Source: Aquabacter sp. L1I39
Lineage (GTDB): Bacteria; Pseudomonadota; Alphaproteobacteria; Rhizobiales; Xanthobacteraceae
Direction: 5' to 3'
Length of the DNA: 64,000 nucleotides
Assembly (NCBI RefSeq): GCF_017742835.1
Contig: NZ_CP072392.1
Span: 2,788,387 to 2,852,386, forward strand
In this document: piece by piece, positions 20,610-62,112 of the stretch
Numbering within the stretch: position 1 is the first letter of the stretch
Layout: each line of letters begins with the position of its first letter
Translations under genes and position numbers: made by a program
The notes under the pieces: generated by a model
Told to the model about the DNA's origin: nothing
The model's database searches: none
The model's input: the letters and a program-made list of their open reading frames with translations, nothing else

Positions 20610-21446
20610 TCAGGCCTTCAGCCGCTCCGCATGCCAGGCCAGATGGTCCGCCATGAAGGTGGAGATGAAGAAATAGGAGTGGTCGTACCCCTCTTGCATG
20701 TTCAGCGTCAGCGGAATGCCGGCCTTCTTGCAGGCGGCAGCCAGCAATTGGGGCCGCAGGCCGGTCTCCAGGAACGGGTCGGCCGTGCCCTGGTCCACCA
20801 GCAGCTCGGGCACGCGGTGGCCGTCCTCGATGAGCGCCACCGCGTCATAGGCCCGCCAAGCCTTGGGATCAGCGCCGAGATATTTCTCCAGCGCCGGCCG
20901 GGACCAATCGGCAGTGGACGGTTCCACGATGGGCGCGAAGGCCGAGCAGGAGCGGAAGCGGCCGGGATGCTTCAGCGCCGCCGTGAGCGCGCCGTGGCCG
21001 CCCATGGAATGGCCGAAAATGCCCTGCCGCCCCATGTCCGCCGGGAATGCCTCCGCCACCAGGCGGGGGAGTTCGTCGAGGACATAGGAGGCCATGCGGT
21101 AGTTGGCGGCGTAGGGGGCTTGCGTGGCATCCACATAGAAGCCAGCCCCCGAGCCGAACTGCCAATTGGCCGGCTCGTCCGGCACGTCGGGGCCGCGGGG
21201 CGAGGTGTCCGGGCAGACGATCATCAGGCCCAGCTCGGCCGCCGCCGCGCGGTACTCGCCCTTTTCCATGACATTGGCATGGGTGCAGGTGAGGCCGGAC
21301 AGATACCACAACACCGGCACCGGCCCCGCCGCCGCCTGGGGCGGGACGAAGACGGCGAAGGTCATGGGCGTGCCCGTGGCGGCGGAAGCATGGCGATAGA
21401 CGCCCTGCACCCCGCCATGGGACTTGGCGGTGGAAACGGTCTCCAT
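20610..21446 (-). CDS. fghA: S-formylglutathione hydrolase
   Basis: A 278-residue alpha/beta hydrolase that cleaves S-formylglutathione to formate and glutathione, the second step of glutathione-dependent formaldehyde detoxification. It shows the esterase-D-type blocks LWYLSGLTCTHANVMEKG and the nucleophile elbow GHSMGGHGAL, with the catalytic aspartate and histidine in VDQGTADPF and YDHSYFFI. The ATG at 21446 fits family length. It overlaps or adjoins the end of adhC by nine bases upstream, consistent with an operon. Confidence 0.95.
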   Translation of the reverse strand: METVSTAKSHGGVQGVYRHASAATGTPMTFAVFVPPQAAAGPVPVLWYLSGLTCTHANVMEKGEYRAAAAELGLMIVCPDTSPRGPDVPDEPANWQFGSGAGFYVDATQAPYAANYRMASYVLDELPRLVAEAFPADMGRQGIFGHSMGGHGALTAALKHPGRFRSCSAFAPIVEPSTADWSRPALEKYLGADPKAWRAYDAVALIEDGHRVPELLVDQGTADPFLETGLRPQLLAAACKKAGIPLTLNMQEGYDHSYFFISTFMADHLAWHAERLKA

Positions 21447-21454
21447 CACCCGCC

Positions 21455-22567
21455 TCAATAGATCACGACGGAGCGGATGGACTTGCCTTCGTGCATCAGG
21501 TCGAAGGCGGTGTTGATCTCGTCCAGCGGCATGGTGTGGGTGATGAGATCATCGATGTTGATCTTCCCCTCCATGTACCAGTCGACAATCTTCGGCACGT
21601 CCGTGCGGCCGCGCGCGCCGCCGAAGGCGGAACCGCGCCAGTTGCGGCCCGTGACAAGCTGGAACGGCCGGGTGGAGATTTCCGCCCCCGCCGGCGCCAC
21701 GCCGATGACGATGGAGGTGCCCCAGCCGCGGTGACAGGCTTCCAGCGCCTGGCGCATGACGGTGACATTGCCGGTGCAGTCGAAGGTGAAGTCCGCGCCG
21801 CCATCGGTCAGGTCCTGGATGGCCGAGACCACCTTGTCGGACCCCACCTCCAGCGGGTTGATGAAGTCGGTCATGCCGAACTTCCGCGCCATCTCCACCT
21901 TGGCGGGATTGATGTCGATGCCGATGATCTTGTCCGCGCCCACCATGCGGGCGCCCTGGATCACGTTGAGGCCGATGCCCCCTAAGCCAAAGACCGCCAC
22001 GTTCGCGCCAGGCCAGACCTTGGCGGTGTAGACAACGGCGCCGATGCCGGTGGTGACGCCGCAGCCGATATAGCAGATCTTATCGAAGGGGGCGTCCTCG
22101 CGGACCTTGGCCAGCGCGATCTCGGGCAGCACGGTGAAGTTGGAGAAGGTGGAGCAGCCCATATAGTGGAAGATCTCGCCGCCATCGCAGGAGAAGCGCG
22201 AGGTGCGGTCGGGCATCAGGCCCTGGCCTTGCGTGGCGCGGATGGAGGTGCACAGGTTCGAGCGCTGCGACAGGCAGGTTTTGCACTGGCGGCATTCGGG
22301 CGTGTAGAGCGGAATGACGTGGTCGCCCACTTTCAGCGAGGTCACGCCCGCGCCCACCTCGCGCACGATGCCGGCGCCCTCATGGCCGAGAATGGCGGGG
22401 AACTTGCCTTCCGAATCGAGGCCGTCCAGCGTGTAGGCATCGGTGTGGCACACGCCCGTCGCCATGATCTCCACCAGCACCTCGCCGGCCTTGGGGCCGC
22501 CAATCTCAATGGTTTCGATGGTGAGGGGCTTCTTGGCCTCCCAGGCGACGGCGGCGCGGGTCTTCAT
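21455..22567 (-). CDS. adhC: S-(hydroxymethyl)glutathione dehydrogenase / class III alcohol dehydrogenase
   Basis: A 370-residue zinc alcohol dehydrogenase oxidising S-hydroxymethylglutathione to S-formylglutathione with NAD. The catalytic zinc ligands are in [18 protein letters not shown] and [10 protein letters not shown]; the structural zinc cysteines are in [17 protein letters not shown]; the NAD fold is [13 protein letters not shown]. Eight bases separate its stop from the fghA ATG, so the two genes form a formaldehyde oxidation operon. In methylotrophic or formaldehyde-exposed bacteria this pair is dissimilatory as well as protective. Confidence 0.97.
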
Positions 22568-23538: not shown

Positions 23539-23634
23539 GTCCCCTTATGGACGAAGAGCCCCGATGGGGGCTCTTACGCGGGTGCAGTCCCAGAGGCGAG
23601 GTCATGCGCGAGCGGCATGCCTCGGAGACGGTCC

Positions 23635-23877
23635 TCAGGACAAGCGCGCGGGCGCGCCGGAGGAAATGCCCATCGCCTGCGTGAAGGTGGCAAAGGCCTG
23701 CCACGCGCGGCGTTCCAGTTCGGGGTGGGAAGCAGCTTCCATCTGGTCCATGAGCATTTCGGCGTGTTCGTAGGACGGATGCCCTTTCATGAAACCGACG
23801 GCGTCATCAAGGGAGCGGAACACCACGCGGGATCCATCCACCAGGAGAGTCATCGGTGCAGAGCTGACCGTTTGCAT
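23635..23877 (-). CDS. Small protein of unknown function (DUF982-like)
   Basis: An 80-residue protein. The pattern VDGSRVVFRSLDDAVGFM, then a helix with regularly spaced acids and a final AFATFTQAMGI, resembles DUF982, a rhizobial family of small alpha/beta proteins without known function. The assignment is tentative. A strong match to the general-stress promoter form lies upstream (23981-24006), so it is probably induced in stationary phase or stress. A purine-rich ribosome site (AGGAGACTG on the coding strand) precedes the ATG. Confidence 0.65.
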   Translation of the reverse strand: MQTVSSAPMTLLVDGSRVVFRSLDDAVGFMKGHPSYEHAEMLMDQMEAASHPELERRAWQAFATFTQAMGISSGAPARLS

Positions 23878-23980
23878 GGGCAGTCTCCTTTCTTGTTGTT
23901 ATGAGGTGTCCAGGTACGCATCTGTTACGTGTGGTCGGGACGAGCGCCATCCTCGTGCCGAGGCGCGCTATTGAGGGCAT

Positions 23981-24006
23981 AACGGCGGAAGACGCCGTTC
24001 AGTTCC
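23981..24006 (-). promoter_or_regulatory. EcfG/RpoE2-type promoter before the 80-residue gene
   Basis: On the minus strand GGAAC (24006-24002), 17 bases, then CGTT (23984-23981). Both boxes match the alphaproteobacterial general stress sigma factor consensus exactly and the spacing is allowed. The start codon is about 104 bases further downstream at 23877. Confidence 0.6.
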
Positions 24007-24050
24007 GCGCGGGCTAATCTTTCTTCACACGCGACATTCGCCCGCCGGCG

Positions 24051-24092
24051 GCCTTGCCCCGTGGGGCAAGGCTGGGCGCTCCCATGAGCGCC
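24051..24092 (-). terminator. Two tandem hairpins after the Gln/Gly-rich gene
   Basis: Hairpin one pairs GGCGCTC (24075-24081) with GAGCGCC (24086-24092). Hairpin two pairs GCCTTGCCCC (24051-24060) with GGGGCAAGGC (24063-24072) over a two-base loop. Both are perfect and lie 11-52 bases after the minus-strand stop at 24104. No T-run is present. Confidence 0.55.
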
Positions 24093-24103
24093 GGAAGAGC
24101 GGG

Positions 24104-24427
24104 TCAGCTCCTATAGGGATTGTCGCGGCTCAAGTCGGTGCGGATGTCGTCCTTCACGCCGGGCTGGCTCTGCCGCTCGCCCGATCCGCCTTGCTGACCG
24201 CCAGTGCCAGCGCTCTGGCCCTGCTGGCCGGTCCGGGGATGGGCGGGCTGTCCGCCCTGCTGCTGTCCGCCGACGGGTCCACGCTGCGGCGTGCCCTGGC
24301 TCTGCTGTCCCGCGCTTGGCTCCCGGCTCGGATCGGGCCGTTCGATCTCAACGGGCTTGCGCGGCATGTCCTCGTGACGCTGCATGCCCTGCTGGGGTTG
24401 ACGCTGCTGGTCCTTGTTCATGGTCAT
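24104..24427 (-). CDS. Gln/Gly-rich, probably disordered small protein
   Basis: A 107-residue hydrophilic protein dominated by Gln, Gly, Pro, Ser, Arg and charged residues (for example GGQQQGGQP, GTGGQQGGSGERQ), with no hydrophobic core and no recognised domain. It ends in DDIRTDLSRDNPYRS. It is divergent from ku1 with 142 bases between. Its promoter region contains a near match to the EcfG form. The antisense frame is also long, but the minus-strand frame has a good start (MTMNKDQQ) with a GAAAGGA-like ribosome site. Function unknown; stress-related small protein is inference. Confidence 0.6.
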   Translation of the reverse strand: MTMNKDQQRQPQQGMQRHEDMPRKPVEIERPDPSREPSAGQQSQGTPQRGPVGGQQQGGQPAHPRTGQQGQSAGTGGQQGGSGERQSQPGVKDDIRTDLSRDNPYRS

Positions 24428-24467
24428 GCTGCTTTCCTCTTCTTGTCGTTGGCAGCCCCGACCCTCC

Positions 24468-24492
24468 AACGCGCGCCCGTGCCTCCCGTTTC
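24468..24492 (-). promoter_or_regulatory. EcfG-like promoter before the Gln/Gly-rich gene
   Basis: On the minus strand GAAAC (24492-24488), 16 bases, CGTT (24471-24468). The -35 box has one mismatch to GGAAC. The -10 box is 40 bases from the start codon. Confidence 0.4.
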
Positions 24493-24522
24493 ACCTTGGC
24501 CGCAAAGAAAGAGACGTCCACG

Positions 24523-24548
24523 GGAACGTGCGGCCCCGTCCGGGCATT
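24523..24548 (+). promoter_or_regulatory. EcfG-like promoter before ku1-ligD
   Basis: GGAAC (24523-24527), 17 bases, CATT (24545-24548), where the general-stress consensus is CGTT. The ku1 ATG follows 21 bases after the -10 box, giving a short leader. Confidence 0.4.
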
Positions 24549-24569
24549 CCTGCGCTCGGGAGACATGCC

Positions 24570-25484
24570 ATGCCGCGCGCCTTGTGGAAGGGAGTTCTGG
24601 ATCTTGGGGCGCTCACCTGTCCGGTGAGCCTTTATTCCGCGACCGCCACGTCGCAGCGGATTTCCTTCCACACCATCAACCGCGCCACCGGCCACCGCGT
24701 GCACCGCCGCTTCGTTGACATCGACACCGGCGAGGATGTGGACCGGGACGCGCAGGTGAAGGGCTATGAGAAGGCTGCCGGCTCCTATGTGGTGCTGGAG
24801 CCGGAGGAGGTGGCACAGGCGGTGCCCGAAAGCGATAAGCGCCTGGCGCTGGAAGCCTTCATCCCCTGCGCAGAGGTGGAGACCGTCTATTTCGACCAGC
24901 CTTATTTCCTGGCTCCCGCTGATTCCAGCGGCGAAGAGACGTTCGTTCTGCTGCGGGAGGGCATGCGCAAGGCCAAGGTGGCGGCGCTCACCCGCGCGGT
25001 CCTGTTTCGGAGGGTGCGCACCCTCATGCTGCGACCGGACGGGCCGGGTTTCGTCGCGACCACGCTGAATTTCGACTATGAGGTGAAGTCGGCGGCGGAC
25101 GCCTTTGCTGATGTGCCGCGCACGCGCCTGAAAGGCGAGATGTTGGAGCTGGCCGAACACATTATCCGCACCAAGGCGGGGCACTTCGATCCTTCCGCCT
25201 ACGAGAACGCCCACGAGGCCGCGCTGGCCGAACTGGTGAAGGCCAAGCTCGCCGGCAAGGCCATCAAGCCCCGCGCCGCGCCCAAGAGCGCGAAGGTGGT
25301 GGACCTCATGTCGGCCCTTCGCGACAGCGCGCGGCTGGCGGGGCAGGGGGCGGACAAGCCTGCGCCCGGCCCGGCGGCCAAAAGCTCGGGCAGCGGCACG
25401 CTCAAGACCACGACCAAGGCCACGACGAAGAAGACGGCAGCAAAGACCACGAAGTCCGCCACGCCGCGCCGCAAGGCGAGCTAG
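24570..25484 (+). CDS. ku1: Ku protein, first copy (non-homologous end joining)
   Basis: A 304-residue bacterial Ku homologue that threads onto DNA ends as a homodimer and recruits LigD. The Ku core runs from MPRALWKGVLDLGALTCPVS to about residue 230, with FHTINRATGHRV and RRFVDIDTGEDV. After the core comes VVDLMSALRDSA and a Lys/Thr/Ala-rich basic tail of about 40 residues, as in extended bacterial Ku tails that contact DNA. The ATG at 24570 is the canonical start; an earlier in-frame extension is not conserved in type. ligD follows after 18 bases. Confidence 0.93.
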   Translation: MPRALWKGVLDLGALTCPVSLYSATATSQRISFHTINRATGHRVHRRFVDIDTGEDVDRDAQVKGYEKAAGSYVVLEPEEVAQAVPESDKRLALEAFIPCAEVETVYFDQPYFLAPADSSGEETFVLLREGMRKAKVAALTRAVLFRRVRTLMLRPDGPGFVATTLNFDYEVKSAADAFADVPRTRLKGEMLELAEHIIRTKAGHFDPSAYENAHEAALAELVKAKLAGKAIKPRAAPKSAKVVDLMSALRDSARLAGQGADKPAPGPAAKSSGSGTLKTTTKATTKKTAAKTTKSATPRRKAS

Positions 25485-25502
25485 CCTGACCGAGGCCGCC
25501 TC

Positions 25503-28040
25503 ATGTCCCTCGCCACCTATCGCAAGAAGCGCAATTTCAAGGTCACGCCGGAGCCCAAGGGCCGCAAGGGCGAGGCGAAGGGGGCCCATTACCTGATCCA
25601 GAAGCATGCGGCCCGGCGCCTCCATTACGATTTGCGCCTGGAACTGGATGGGGTCCTGAAGAGCTGGGCCGTGACCCGCGGGCCGAGCCTGGTGGCCGGT
25701 GAAAAGCGGCTCGCGGTGGAGGTGGAGGACCATCCCCTCGCTTATGGCGATTTCGAGGGCACCATCCCCAAGGGCGAATATGGCGGGGGCACCGTCCTAT
25801 TGTGGGATCGGGGCACCTGGGAGCCTATTGGCGATCCCCATGAGGGGCTGAAATCCGGTCAATTGGACTTCCGGTTGCACGGGGAAAAGCTCGGTGGTCG
25901 CTGGCACCTGGTGCGCATGCACCGCAAGGAGCGGGACACGCGCGACAATTGGCTGCTCATCAAGGGCGAGGACGAAGCCGCTCGTCCCGCAGGCGCCGAA
26001 GACATTCTGGACGAGGCGCCACGATCAGTGAAAACGGGGCGCCTGATTGCCGATGTGGAGGGAGAGCCGCCGGGTTGGTCCTCGAAGACGGGACCGATCA
26101 AGAAGCTGGCTAATGAAAAACAGCCAACCAGCCCCGCACGCAAGAAGCGCACCGTCAAGACCAAAGCGGGGCCAAAAAACTCTTCCGCACCAAAGCCTCC
26201 GCCGGACTTCGCGGAGCCCATGCTGGCGCGCCTCGTGGACAAGGCGCCCAGGGGAGAGAGCTGGTTGCACGAGGTAAAGTTTGACGGCTACAGACTTCTT
26301 GGCCGGATCGAGGAGGGGACTGTGAGGCTTCTGACTCGCAGCGCCCTGGATTGGACCGCACGCTTCGGATCAGCGATCCCGGAGGCGCTTGCCGCGCTTG
26401 GTTTGACCAACGGCCTCCTGGATGGCGAGATCATTGTTGAGAACGGGGCGGGCGCCTCGGACTTTTCCGCCTTGCAGGCTGACCTCGCCGAAGGGCGCAG
26501 TGACCGCTTTGTCTATTATGCCTTCGACCTCCTGTACCTGGATGGCGAGGATTTGCGCACCTTGCCGCTGATCGAACGCAAGGCACGGCTGGCGCGGCTG
26601 CTAAAGGGGCAAGGTGGCCCATTGCGCTTTTCCAGCCACTTCGACGAGAGCGGTGCCACCGTGCTGCGCCATGCCTGCCGGCTCGGGCTGGAGGGTGTCG
26701 TCTCCAAGGAGCGCGGCTCGCCCTATCGCTCGGGTCGGGGACGGTCCTGGGTGAAGTCCAAATGCACAGCGCGGCAGGAATTCGTGATCGGCGGCTTCGT
26801 GCCCTCCACCACCGGCGCGGATCTGATCGGCTCGTTGGCGCTGGGGGTGAACGAGGACGGCAAGCTCCGTCATGTGGGACGCGTGGGCACCGGCTTTGGT
26901 GCGGCCATTGCCCGGGACCTTCACAAGCGCCTCTCCGCCCTTCAGGTGGAACAATCCCCCTTTGACGGACCCTTGACGGCAGAGGCGCGACGGGGCGTCA
27001 CCTTCGTGCGCCCCGAGCTGGTGGCCGAGGTGGAATTCCGGGCCTGGACCGGCGACGGTCATCTGCGCCACGCCTCGTTCCGTGGCCTCCGGGAAGACAA
27101 GGTGGCCGCCGAGGTGGTGGCCGAGCGCCCGGCGGCCCGGACGAAGGCAAAGGACAATGCTGTGCCCCGCCGCACCGTGAAACTGACACATCCCGACCGG
27201 CTCTATTGGCCCGAGGAGGGCATCACCAAGGAGGGGCTGGCGGACTATTACGCGGAGGTCTGGCCTGCCATCGCGCCTTTCCTCATCGGCCGGCCGCTGG
27301 CGCTGGTGCGCTGCCCCGATGGCATCCATGGCCCGCGCTTCTTTCAGAAGCATGCCTGGAAGGGCCTCAACCCGCGCATTGTGCTGGTGAGCGACCCCAA
27401 GGAGAAAACGGGCGCGCCCCTCATTTCCATCGCCGATCTCGATGGGCTCATCGGCCTTGTCCAGGCAGCGGTGCTGGAGATCCACCCCTGGGGATCCACC
27501 ATCGAGGATTGGGAACGGCCCGACACGCTGGTGATGGACCTCGACCCCGGCGAGGATGTGCCCTGGACGCGGGTCATTGCCGCCGCCGAGGAAGTGAAGG
27601 CGCGCATGGAGGCGGCGGGCCTCGCGGCGTTTGTGAAGACCTCCGGCGGCAAGGGCCTGCATGTGGTGACGCCCCTCAAGCCCAGCGCCAATTGGGCCGA
27701 GGCCAAGGCCTTCAGCAAGGCCGTCGCCCAATCCATGGCTGCCGATAGCCCGGACCTCTATACGGCGACCATCACCAAGTCGAAGCGCGTCGGGCGGATC
27801 CTGGTGGATTATCTGCGCAACCAGCACGGCGCCACGGCGGTGGCGGCCTATTCGACGCGTGCCCGGGAGGGTGCGGCCGTCTCCATGCCGATCGCCTGGG
27901 AGGAATTGACCCCCGCCATTGGCCCGGCGGCTTTTACGATTCTCAACACGCCCGGGCGCCTGAATGCCCTCGCCAAGCGTCCGTGGGACGGCTTTCGCGC
28001 GGCGGCCGTGCCTCTTCCCAAGGCGAAGGCGCGCAAATAA
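25503..28040 (+). CDS. ligD: ATP-dependent DNA ligase LigD (phosphoesterase-ligase-polymerase)
   Basis: An 845-residue multidomain end-joining enzyme. Order: 3'-phosphoesterase (about residues 25-175, with HYDLRLELDGVLKSWAV and HPLAYGDFEGTIPKGEYGGG); a Lys/Pro-rich linker; ATP ligase (about 235-545) with the nucleotidyl lysine Lys259 in EVKFDGYRL and EGVVSKERGSPYRSGR; and C-terminal primase-polymerase (about 565-840) with catalytic Asp679 and Asp681 in VMDLDPGED. All three active sites look intact. It is cotranscribed with ku1 and ends six bases from the convergent ku2. Confidence 0.96.
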   Translation: MSLATYRKKRNFKVTPEPKGRKGEAKGAHYLIQKHAARRLHYDLRLELDGVLKSWAVTRGPSLVAGEKRLAVEVEDHPLAYGDFEGTIPKGEYGGGTVLLWDRGTWEPIGDPHEGLKSGQLDFRLHGEKLGGRWHLVRMHRKERDTRDNWLLIKGEDEAARPAGAEDILDEAPRSVKTGRLIADVEGEPPGWSSKTGPIKKLANEKQPTSPARKKRTVKTKAGPKNSSAPKPPPDFAEPMLARLVDKAPRGESWLHEVKFDGYRLLGRIEEGTVRLLTRSALDWTARFGSAIPEALAALGLTNGLLDGEIIVENGAGASDFSALQADLAEGRSDRFVYYAFDLLYLDGEDLRTLPLIERKARLARLLKGQGGPLRFSSHFDESGATVLRHACRLGLEGVVSKERGSPYRSGRGRSWVKSKCTARQEFVIGGFVPSTTGADLIGSLALGVNEDGKLRHVGRVGTGFGAAIARDLHKRLSALQVEQSPFDGPLTAEARRGVTFVRPELVAEVEFRAWTGDGHLRHASFRGLREDKVAAEVVAERPAARTKAKDNAVPRRTVKLTHPDRLYWPEEGITKEGLADYYAEVWPAIAPFLIGRPLALVRCPDGIHGPRFFQKHAWKGLNPRIVLVSDPKEKTGAPLISIADLDGLIGLVQAAVLEIHPWGSTIEDWERPDTLVMDLDPGEDVPWTRVIAAAEEVKARMEAAGLAAFVKTSGGKGLHVVTPLKPSANWAEAKAFSKAVAQSMAADSPDLYTATITKSKRVGRILVDYLRNQHGATAVAAYSTRAREGAAVSMPIAWEELTPAIGPAAFTILNTPGRLNALAKRPWDGFRAAAVPLPKAKARK

Positions 28041-28046
28041 AGCGCG

Positions 28047-28862
28047 TCATCCCTTGCGCTTGCCGGACTTTTCGCCCGCAATGCTCCGGCGCAGCGCTTC
28101 CATGATGTCGACCACATTGTCGCCGTCCCCCTCCTTCGGCGCGGGAGCGGCCTTGGAGGGCTTGCGCGGCTTTTTGGTCTTCTTGCCGGCGATAATGTCC
28201 AAGAGCTTGGCCTGCACGGGATCAGAGACGAAATCCGGGCTCCAGTCGCGGGTGCGTTCGTCAATCAGCGCCGTCATGAGTTTCATGGCCTTGGCGTCCG
28301 GGGAGGCCTTGCCGATGGCATCGAACACCTCCTGCGGGTCGCGCACCTCGTCGCCATAGCGCAAGGTCCACACCACAATCCCGCCCTCGCGCGGGGCGAG
28401 CATCACCGCATGCTCGCGGCCATGGAGGATGAGGCGGGAAATGCCCACTTGGCCGGTGGCGTCCATGGCATCGCGGATGACGCAATAGGCTTCCTCGCCC
28501 ACTTTGCCGTCGGGGGTGAGGAAATGGGGGCGGTCGAGAAAGATCCAGCCGATGCTGTCGGCGGGCACGAACATCTCGATGTCGAGGGTGCGCCTATTCT
28601 CCAGCGCCACGGCTTCCAGCTCCTCGTCCTCCACGATCACATGGCTGTCCTCGCCGGTGCGATAGCCGCGCGCGAGGCCGTCATCTTCCACCACCTTGCC
28701 CGACACTGCGTCCACATACTCGCTGACCACGCGATTGCCCGTGGCGCGGTTCAAGGTGTGGAAGCGCACCTTGGCGCTCTCCGTGGTGGCTGGCGTCATG
28801 GCCACCGGGCAAGTGACGAGCGAGAGCTTCAGATAGCCCTTCCAGAAGGTGCGCGGTGCCAT
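28047..28862 (-). CDS. ku2: Ku protein, second copy
   Basis: A 271-residue Ku homologue, clearly different in sequence from ku1 but collinear with it: MAPRTFWKGYLKLSLVTCPV, FHTLNRATGNRV, EYVDAVSGKVV, then VVDIMEALRRSI and a short basic C-terminus. The tail is shorter than in ku1. It may form heterodimers with Ku1 or act with another LigD. It is convergent with ligD and has its own upstream stress-type promoter match. Multiple Ku copies are known in Rhizobiales. Confidence 0.93.
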   Translation of the reverse strand: MAPRTFWKGYLKLSLVTCPVAMTPATTESAKVRFHTLNRATGNRVVSEYVDAVSGKVVEDDGLARGYRTGEDSHVIVEDEELEAVALENRRTLDIEMFVPADSIGWIFLDRPHFLTPDGKVGEEAYCVIRDAMDATGQVGISRLILHGREHAVMLAPREGGIVVWTLRYGDEVRDPQEVFDAIGKASPDAKAMKLMTALIDERTRDWSPDFVSDPVQAKLLDIIAGKKTKKPRKPSKAAPAPKEGDGDNVVDIMEALRRSIAGEKSGKRKG

Positions 28863-28892
28863 GGCCGGTTTCCTGTGCGTGTGCGTGACGCG

Positions 28893-28917
28893 AACCCGGC
28901 AGGCGGCCTGTGGTTCC
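28893..28917 (-). promoter_or_regulatory. EcfG-like promoter before ku2
   Basis: On the minus strand GGAAC (28917-28913), 16 bases, GGTT (28896-28893). The -35 box is exact; the -10 box has one change from CGTT. The ku2 ATG is 30 bases downstream. Confidence 0.5.
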
Positions 28918-28927
28918 CCTCGGCCCG

Positions 28928-29641
28928 TCAGGGGCGATGGGATGGGGCAAGGGACAATCGCGTGCGCAGAGCCGCCCGCATATGGGCGCGGGCTGCCTGT
29001 TCCGCGCCATCGGCGTCGCGGGCGGTGATGGCATCCAGAATGGCCCTGTGCTCGGCGCGGGCGGCCTCGGGGCGGCCAGGGGCGGAGAAGGTGCTGATGC
29101 CCAGCAAGGCGATATTGTCGTCGAGGACGCGCGTCGCCTCGTCCAGATAGGCGTTGCGGGCGGCGCGATGGATGGCGGCGTGGAAATCCCGGTTGACCCG
29201 CGCCAGTTCCCCATAATCAGCCCCCTCGCGGCCGAAGGCGGCCTCAAGGTCGGCCAGCGCCGCCAGTTCGGGGGGCGAGGCATGCTGCGCGGCGAGGCGC
29301 GCGGCGGCGCCTTCCAGGATTTCGCGCATGGAATAAAGCTCGATCACCTCTGAGGGCGAAAGGGCTCGCACCGTCAGGCCCCGCCCGCCGGCCGTCTCCA
29401 GCAGCCGCTTCTCCAGCAGTCGGCCAAGGGCCTCGCGCACTGGCGTGCGGCTCATGCCGAAGCGGGCGGCGACATCCTGCTCGCGCAGCCGGTCGCCCGC
29501 TTTCAGGATCCCTTCGCGAATCTGGTCGAGAATCGCCCGATAGGCCGCCTCGCCGCGCGAGAGGTGGGCGAAAGGCTGGGCCTCCCCCGCCAGCGCCAAG
29601 TCCGGTGCGGCTTCGTCGTCCGAAAGGGGCGTTCCTGCCAT
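28928..29641 (-). CDS. GntR-family regulator with FCD domain
   Basis: A 237-residue GntR/FadR-type repressor. The winged helix holds LREQDVAARFGMSRTPVREA, the GntR signature, and the FCD ligand domain follows (IELYSMREILEGAAARLA, then NRDFHAAIHRAARN and EHRAILDAITARDADGAEQ with metal-ligand histidines). The ATG at 29641 fits; the frame upstream is not GntR-like. No catabolic gene sits next to it, so the regulated pathway is unknown. A palindrome lies 77 bases upstream. Confidence 0.9.
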   Translation of the reverse strand: MAGTPLSDDEAAPDLALAGEAQPFAHLSRGEAAYRAILDQIREGILKAGDRLREQDVAARFGMSRTPVREALGRLLEKRLLETAGGRGLTVRALSPSEVIELYSMREILEGAAARLAAQHASPPELAALADLEAAFGREGADYGELARVNRDFHAAIHRAARNAYLDEATRVLDDNIALLGISTFSAPGRPEAARAEHRAILDAITARDADGAEQAARAHMRAALRTRLSLAPSHRP

Positions 29642-29717
29642 GTCTCCATCCGTCCGGCGAGCCTCAAGGCGGGCCCGCCCTCTTATAGCAGGCGGGGCGG
29701 ACGGTGGCAGGGTTTTG

Positions 29718-29735
29718 TGTATGTCATTGCATACA
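29718..29735. promoter_or_regulatory. Candidate GntR operator
   Basis: Palindrome TGTATG-N6-CATACA in an AT-rich patch, 77-94 bases upstream of the gntR start and 14 bases after the MOSC gene stop. The form is close to the TGTATACA-type sites of FCD regulators and suggests autoregulation. Confidence 0.5.
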
Positions 29736-29748
29736 ATGTCCGCAATGC

Positions 29749-30447
29749 TCACCCCTGCGCCCCGTCGGGGCCTATGAGGCGGCGGCGCCAATCCTCCACC
29801 TGCCCGGTCTCCAGACGGCGCAAGGCGAGGCGGCGCCAGGTGTCCGGCAGGGGCGGCAGCCGCGCCATCTCGCCCAGGCCGTACCGGTCGTCCGTCTCCA
29901 CATAAAGCAGGCGCGAGAGGCGGGTCAGCGGCCAATGGGGCAGGGGACGGTCCAGAAGTTCAAGCGCATCCCCCGCCGCCACCGGCCCCTCCTGCCGCAC
30001 GCGATAATACCAGCCGGTGCGGCCACTCCGCTGTACGCGGATCGCCATGTCCGGGCAGTCGAATCGGTGGTTCAGCTTCCAGCAGGGCTGGCGGCCCTGG
30101 CTGACCTCCAGCACGGCGCCACCCAGGGCGAATACGTCGCCGAGGCAGATGTCCGCTTCCGTGACTCCGTGGGTTGAGAAGTTCTCCCCAAAGGCGCCCG
30201 GCTCATTGAGCACTGAGCGCGGACCAATCTCCGCCCGCCAGGCGTCATAATGCGTGCGGTCATAATGGTGCACCGCCTTGTCCGGCCCGCCATGATGGCG
30301 AAGGTCGCCCTGTCCGTCGCCGGCAAGGCCGAGGCGGCTCAGGAAGACCGGTCCGGCCACGGGGCGCTTGGCGATGCCACTCCCATCGCCGCGGGGGCCG
30401 AAGGGCTGGACCTGCCCGATGAGGAGCGCGTTCAGCGTCAAGATCAT
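29749..30447 (-). CDS. MOSC-domain protein (YiiM-like)
   Basis: A 232-residue MOSC protein of the YiiM type. It has the conserved LAGDGQGDLRHHGGPDKAVHHY, GAFGENFSTHGV and the cysteine in QGRQPCWKLNHRF that is proposed to ligate the molybdenum cofactor or sulfur. YiiM proteins reduce N-hydroxylated bases such as 6-hydroxylaminopurine. The start overlaps the amidotransferase stop (ATGA), so the two are translated together. Confidence 0.87.
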   Translation of the reverse strand: MILTLNALLIGQVQPFGPRGDGSGIAKRPVAGPVFLSRLGLAGDGQGDLRHHGGPDKAVHHYDRTHYDAWRAEIGPRSVLNEPGAFGENFSTHGVTEADICLGDVFALGGAVLEVSQGRQPCWKLNHRFDCPDMAIRVQRSGRTGWYYRVRQEGPVAAGDALELLDRPLPHWPLTRLSRLLYVETDDRYGLGEMARLPPLPDTWRRLALRRLETGQVEDWRRRLIGPDGAQG

Positions 30448-62034: not shown

Positions 62035-62086
62035 GGGGGCCTCCACCGGGCGTGGTCCTGTGATCCGGCGGGCGGATCGCAGCGGG

Positions 62087-62112
62087 AACCACGCAGAGGA
62101 GTTGGAGGTTCC
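62087..62112 (-). promoter_or_regulatory. EcfG-like promoter before the DUF1328 gene
   Basis: On the minus strand GGAAC (62112-62108), 17 bases, GGTT (62090-62087). The -35 box is exact and the -10 box has one change from CGTT. It also forms the dyad GGGAACC-N16-GGTTCCC. The start codon is 52 bases downstream. Confidence 0.45.

Follow-up and report, generated by a model that had tools for sequence, protein, structure and literature searches.

In the window, the 64,000-nt stretch of the Aquabacter sp. L1I39 genome that was analysed, two ku genes and one ligD gene form a compact island accompanied by EcfG-type sites. The genes and sites are listed below. Matrix scores refer to a matrix built from 24 Sphingomonas melonis EcfG promoters, with the Ku gene of that organism left out; its maximum score is 16.62.

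23635..23877, minus strand: 80-aa ORF from the ORF list, 3' of a perfect EcfG site
24006-23981, minus strand: perfect EcfG site of the 80-aa ORF, GGAAC-N17-CGTT, 103 nt before the ORF (23877-23635); matrix score 15.88
24104..24427, minus strand: Gln/Gly/Pro-rich ORF, divergent from ku1; ATG at 24427 likely, chosen by the analyst
24492-24468, minus strand: EcfG-like site of the Gln/Gly-rich gene, GAAAC-N16-CGTT, 40 nt before the likely ATG at 24427; matrix score 11.67
24523..24548, plus strand: predicted EcfG-type promoter of ku1-ligD, GGAAC-N17-CATT, ending 21 nt before the ATG at 24570; matrix score 13.69
24570..25484, plus strand: ku1 (KuA clade), Ku core and Lys-rich tail, 304 aa; TIGR02772 253.8 bits, PF02735 140.4 bits
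25503..28040, plus strand: ligD, 845 aa; domain order 3'-phosphoesterase, ligase, primase/polymerase
28047..28862, minus strand: ku2 (KuB clade), 271 aa; TIGR02772 270.5 bits
28917-28893, minus strand: predicted EcfG-type promoter of ku2, GGAAC-N16-GGTT, ending 30 nt before the ATG at 28862; matrix score 14.70

Both Ku proteins scored above the TIGR02772 cut-off of 150 and shared about 32% identity. A Pfam search matched the Ku core alone in each, with no vWA domain. By profile search, PE, LIG and POL were all present in the single LigD protein. The ku1 and ligD genes are both forward and separated by 18 nt, ku2 is convergent with ligD, their stop codons being separated by 6 nt, and a gntR-type (GntR/FCD) gene co-directional with ku2 ends 65 nt upstream of it. 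A Ku model search of the 5.39-Mb single-contig genome detected two Ku genes, both in the island, and the only LigD_Prim-Pol domain match in the genome was that of the island's ligD. The earlier note on this DNA, which had described two distinct Ku proteins and one LigD, was thus correct about gene content.

At the gap between ligD and ku2 (28041-28046), transcripts induced from the two sides may overlap and form antisense pairs. The Gln/Gly/Pro-rich ORF had no match in Pfam or NCBIfam, and the 80-aa ORF had none in Pfam. Minus-strand genes near the island, at 20610-22567, resemble those for S-formylglutathione hydrolase and glutathione-dependent formaldehyde dehydrogenase, as judged from translations read by eye.

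EcfG-type sites precede both ku genes and are retained in a congener

The earlier note had placed EcfG-type sites before ku1-ligD, ku2 and the divergent Gln/Gly-rich gene. Direct reading and a pattern search recovered GGAAC-N17-CATT before ku1 and GGAAC-N16-GGTT before ku2 at the positions and distances claimed, and the GAAAC-N16-CGTT site of the third gene was likewise found. A search of 23600-29000 on both strands for G[GA]AAC-N16/17-[CG][AG]TT returned these three sites and the perfect site of the 80-aa ORF, and no others; this fourth site went unnamed in the earlier note. Both ku1 and ku2 therefore carry the start-proximal, GGAAC-N16/17-CGTT-like promoter expected of EcfG regulon members.

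The genus-level comparison comprised one congener genome, Aquabacter sp. P-9 (NZ_JARBFX010000001.1). The boxes before ku1 and ku2 were kept in this genome and the spacers had diverged. The GAAAC-type boxes of the Gln/Gly-rich gene were also retained, with a different spacer, and a GGAAC-N16-CGTT site aligned with the N17 site of the 80-aa ORF, 16 being a still permitted spacing.

The ku2 site sits inside the 65 nt that separate ku2 from the gntR-type gene. This arrangement, with the GntR/FCD gene on the same strand, would allow ku2 to be transcribed mainly by read-through, with the EcfG site minor and with an additional housekeeping promoter serving ku1-ligD; several ku2-type genes of relatives also follow another ORF and have no site of their own. 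However, the ku2 site is again located in the gap upstream of ku2 in the congener, and a site was found for most kuB genes of loci with the window layout (42/51, among the best 80 of 583 kuA loci described below). A scan of 23600-29900 found 0 sigma-70-like sites versus 0.6 in shuffles, an expectation too low for the scan to say much about a housekeeping promoter. We consider predominant read-through unlikely and favor direct control of ku2 by its EcfG-type site.

Position distinguishes the sites from background matches

An alternative reading is that these matches arose by chance, GGAAC and near-CGTT boxes being common in this GC-rich genome. Bulk counts leave room for it: GGAAC-N16/17-SRTT was not enriched genome-wide (183 matches versus 222 for the reversed pattern), and neither was the perfect form (74 versus 113). 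When 400 kb of background was scored on both strands, 13 sites scored at least as high as the ku1 site and 4 at least as high as the ku2 site, corresponding to probabilities of 0.0016 and 0.0005 per 100 nt with the S. melonis matrix; extrapolation from the 13 gives about 175 ku1-grade sites per genome. Within the whole window, GGAAC-N16/17-SRTT occurred 7 times versus 2.6 in shuffles (sd 1.7), and 2 of 100 shuffles reached 7. Two of these seven matches are overlapping GGAAC-N17-GGTT sites, one on each strand, of a near-palindrome at 62085-62112.

With no bulk enrichment genome-wide, the case for the sites rests on where they lie and how well they are conserved. In the 400-kb sample, a ku1-grade site lay within the 120-nt leader of 1 of 306 genes, as called by the analyst's own simple gene caller. 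The earlier note had proposed ranking the sites with an EcfG matrix and had regarded equal-quality matches in gene interiors as telling against its reading. The outcome was mixed: score alone proved unspecific and equal-grade matches do exist away from leaders, so that the objection applies weakly, but such matches are rare inside leaders.

EcfG-type sites are conserved at ku genes across Alphaproteobacteria

A first survey covered 118 nonredundant ku genes, 106 from a family survey and 12 from six named plasmids, after 4 duplicate proteins had been dropped from 122 places. Genes were classed by tblastn score as kuA (ku1-like) or kuB (ku2-like), with the rest forming classes C and D, and gene starts, in this survey and in those below, were set by a conserved N-terminal anchor motif, not mapped. 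Six partial or frame-broken family matches were left out (three in genome G019 and one each in G033, G053 and G031), and 65 of the 67 Ku-positive family genomes were classed. The sites found in the 150 nt upstream of each gene were as follows, given as perfect boxes (shuffle expectation in parentheses); boxes with at most one -10 mismatch; and the same looser match on the opposite strand.

kuA: 13/20 (0.03); 17/20; 2/20
kuB: 6/21 (0.02); 11/21; 2/21
Class C: 19/68 (0.12); 30/68; 18/68
Class D: 8/9 (0.03); 8/9; 0/9

No perfect box was found inside these 118 ku genes. The opposite-strand counts of kuA, kuB and class C exceeded the shuffle expectation; in class C, where 18 leaders had such a site, divergent neighbors of single ku genes may share the regulon. 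Under the looser match, all six kuA and all six kuB genes of the named plasmid loci had a site, as did 11/14 kuA and 5/15 kuB genes of the family alone. Among the ten family kuB genes with no site of their own, three start no more than 18 nt after ligD or kuA, and others follow another ORF. A search further upstream of site-less ku2-type genes yielded a few sites and no clear rule.

A second set consisted of the best 80 of 583 named kuA loci, which is consequently skewed to close relatives and overlaps the other sets in part. These 80 loci belong largely to Rhizobiaceae, Phyllobacteriaceae and other Hyphomicrobiales, and also to Paracoccus and relatives, Nitrospirillum and Azospirillum. When one -10 mismatch was tolerated, sites preceded 67/80 kuA and 48/73 kuB genes in this set, most of them beginning 50-100 nt upstream of the gene. 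When 360 permuted box pairs were compared on these loci, GGAAC/CGTT ranked first with its 67/80 kuA genes, whereas the other 359 averaged 1.7/80 for kuA and 1.5/73 for kuB; the next pairs, with 38 and fewer, were mostly shifted or near-identical forms of the EcfG pair. The -10 boxes at the 67 kuA sites were CGTT (32), CATT (14), GGTT (7), AGTT (7), TGTT (4) and three others once each, and those at the 48 kuB sites were CGTT (31), GGTT (12), TGTT (2), AGTT (2) and one other.

The frequency of sites in these best 80 of 583 loci varied with gene layout. In the 51 loci with the layout of the window, kuA-ligD with a convergent kuB, sites were present before 51/51 kuA and 42/51 kuB genes. The 56 loci with kuA and kuB on opposite strands had a site before kuA in 55, before kuB in 47 and before both in 46, and the 17 tandem kuA-kuB loci had one before kuA in 5/17 and before kuB in 1/17. 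Tandem loci among L186-L238 (Rhizobium and relatives) mostly had no near site, unlike the tandem pair of Sinorhizobium meliloti.

As a lineage control, the analysis took in every full Ku match from the rest of the phylum (30; two partial matches of genome G148 were omitted), and 0/30 had a site. Sites were found before 7/25 ku genes of other orders of the class, which were all of those matched, and before 7/9 ku genes of the same order, drawn from 7 of 17 genomes. Thus, the site is conserved in relatives, with tandem layouts, family kuB genes and other orders as exceptions.

These comparisons bear directly on chance, which would have had to place identical boxes at the identical position in the congener, to do so before every kuA and most kuB genes of the window layout, to favor one box pair so far over its permutations, and to spare all 30 out-of-class genes. 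We regard chance as scarcely credible, and the island sites are with high probability real, conserved EcfG-type promoters. Because the site precedes 51/51 kuA and 42/51 kuB genes in the layout loci among the best 80 of 583, and 0/30 genes outside the class, these data suggest that, in this part of Alphaproteobacteria, nonhomologous end joining (NHEJ) came under EcfG control long ago and has widely stayed so, and that such control is not peculiar to a few species.

The genome encodes a probable PhyR-NepR-EcfG switch

In the PhyR-NepR-EcfG switch, PhyR takes NepR off EcfG under general stress. A single locus of the genome (5354000-5368000) encodes a NepR-like protein, an EcfG-like sigma factor, PhyR, an HWE/HisKA_2 kinase and a KGG stress protein. 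The best solved relative of the EcfG-like protein is 5uxx (E 5.1e-46). The NepR-like match (22.7-23.9 bits) falls short of the 25.7 that Pfam requires, and the gene was accepted despite this score because it adjoins ecfG and phyR. EcfG, NepR and PhyR are thus all represented in the genome.

This general stress locus holds 5 of the genome's 74 perfect EcfG sites. Perfect boxes lie 42 nt before the KGG gene and 29 nt before the phyR ATG, and another ends 12 nt upstream of ecfG as counted from its first ATG, although a later ATG is possible. A further perfect box, 34 nt before another short ORF, is 291 nt upstream of the nepR start given in the ORF list.

The sites could also be genuine ECF-type promoters that a different ECF sigma factor, or more than one, recognizes. 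Many ECF sigma factors share an AAC core in the -35 box (PMC7083833, partial text), and the genome contains four further weak EcfG matches of 26-31% identity. However, only one close EcfG copy is present, and matching boxes lie near ecfG, phyR and nepR. Further, CGTT and its variants CATT and GGTT are all -10 forms in the S. melonis EcfG list (PMC6599016, partial text), and the -10 box in Sphingopyxis granuli is reported as flexible (PMC7083833, partial text). Recognition by a different sigma factor is therefore very unlikely, and EcfG is the favored reader of the island sites.

The two Ku proteins belong to paired clades

The kuA and kuB clades each had a support of 1.0, and each includes one of two neighboring Ku genes on pSymB of S. 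meliloti 1021. This plasmid, whose record has one annotated feature, was scanned with the Ku model, and the pair was located at 1,337-1,339 kb. ku1 and ku2 are orthologs of the two members of this pair (57% each), which is probably ku3-ku4; both island Ku proteins thus fall in the clades of the pSymB pair. A third pSymB Ku, adjoining a ligD, lies outside both clades. A GGAAC-N17-GGTT site precedes the first gene of the pSymB pair by about 35 nt, as an EcfG-type site precedes the island ku genes. The layouts differ: the pSymB genes are in tandem, whereas in the Aquabacter island ku1 and ku2 converge on ligD, each with its own predicted promoter. Searching with the LigD of the window found no ligD in a 10-kb stretch around the pSymB pair (about 4 kb on either side).

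Of the 67 family genomes with Ku matches, 65 were classed; kuA was present in 14 of these and kuB in exactly those 14, of which G027 has a class C gene besides. Of the best 80 of 583 kuA loci, 73 had kuB within the fetched stretch; two of the remaining seven had a Ku of unclear class and five had no kuB, four of these five being shortened by a contig end. There was a hint that basic tails in this set are longer in KuA (median 28 residues) than in KuB (9), but the anchor motif was missed in 26/80 KuA and 28/73 KuB proteins.

Near-obligate pairing of kuA and kuB with one LigD is the pattern that a heterodimer would give. Alternatively, Ku1 and Ku2 could form separate homodimers, each serving LigD in its own condition, as their low mutual identity and separate predicted promoters might suggest; bacterial Ku complexes are mostly homodimers (PMC11936186, partial text). 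Against separate homodimers stand the shared occurrence of kuA and kuB in the family genomes and in 73/80 of the best loci, and the counting of S. meliloti Ku3/Ku4 as one pathway (PMC12844678, partial text). Separate homodimers are possible and seem to us the less likely arrangement. A Ku1:Ku2 heterodimer is plausible.

Stress-induced end joining in other alphaproteobacteria

Dupuy et al. 2019 is said to be the primary paper on stress-inducible NHEJ in S. meliloti and is known to us second-hand. A review, citing a paper by Kobayashi, describes Ku2-LigD2 and Ku3/Ku4-LigD4 pathways in this species that are induced through RpoE2 (PMC12844678, partial text). The link to RpoE2, which the earlier note had mentioned, is thereby borne out second-hand and by the orthology of the island genes to the pSymB pair.

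In S. granuli TFA, ku-ligD belongs to the EcfG regulon, whose promoters are of the GGAAC type with a flexible -10 box; the available text names one ku-ligD pair, whereas the island has two Ku clades and two predicted promoters (PMC7083833, partial text). Ku gene #1102 of S. melonis Fr1 is EcfG dependent, with GGAAC-N16-AATT 30 nt before its start and a log2 ratio of -3.2, and the EcfG list of this organism includes both forms found at the island, GGAAC-N17-CATT (#1831) and GGAAC-N16-GGTT (#0787) (PMC6599016, partial text). The term "ligD" is absent from the main text of that report and, in the portion available, no KuA/KuB pair is mentioned; the island has both.

EcfG control of ku has thus already been published for other alphaproteobacteria, the S. 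meliloti case being second-hand, and in view of these reports the idea is confirmed here rather than new. The class-wide conservation of the promoter is the result added to them. A literature search, made mostly without subscription papers, turned up no class-wide survey of EcfG sites at ku genes, which is weak evidence of absence.

A model for the island

We assign a probability of about 0.88 to the reading that the island is a stress-induced NHEJ module in which EcfG drives both ku1-ligD and ku2. The stress-controlled repair module envisaged in the earlier note gains backing from the congener, from the leaders of orthologous ku genes and from the EcfG, NepR and PhyR genes with their matching boxes. 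We infer the use of these sites by EcfG in Aquabacter sp. L1I39, and likewise which stresses count.

Under the proposed model, general stress would lead PhyR to remove NepR from the sigma factor EcfG. EcfG-RNA polymerase would then start ku1-ligD transcription at GGAAC-N17-CATT and ku2 transcription at GGAAC-N16-GGTT, so that both Ku types and the sole LigD would rise together in starved, dry or nondividing cells. Such cells often have no second copy of the chromosome with which to recombine. Broken ends would be bound by Ku, probably in the form of a Ku1:Ku2 heterodimer, and Ku would then recruit LigD to trim, fill and seal them. A layout of two different Ku subunits and one ligase would be analogous to that of eukaryotic Ku70/Ku80; the island Ku proteins differ in consisting of the core without a vWA domain by Pfam, and here the heterodimer is putative.

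Bacterial end joining is error-prone, and the timing of its switch-on is poorly known. The paired Ku clades offer a direct way to test for a bacterial Ku heterodimer, and the breadth of conservation together with the tight pairing of the two clades makes the arrangement worth following. On a broader view, to which we give even odds, kuA-ligD-kuB would be a widespread alphaproteobacterial cassette encoding an obligate Ku heterodimer, with each subunit separately wired to stress. End joining would then be a programmed stress state of nongrowing cells, and the capture of foreign DNA may be its side effect.
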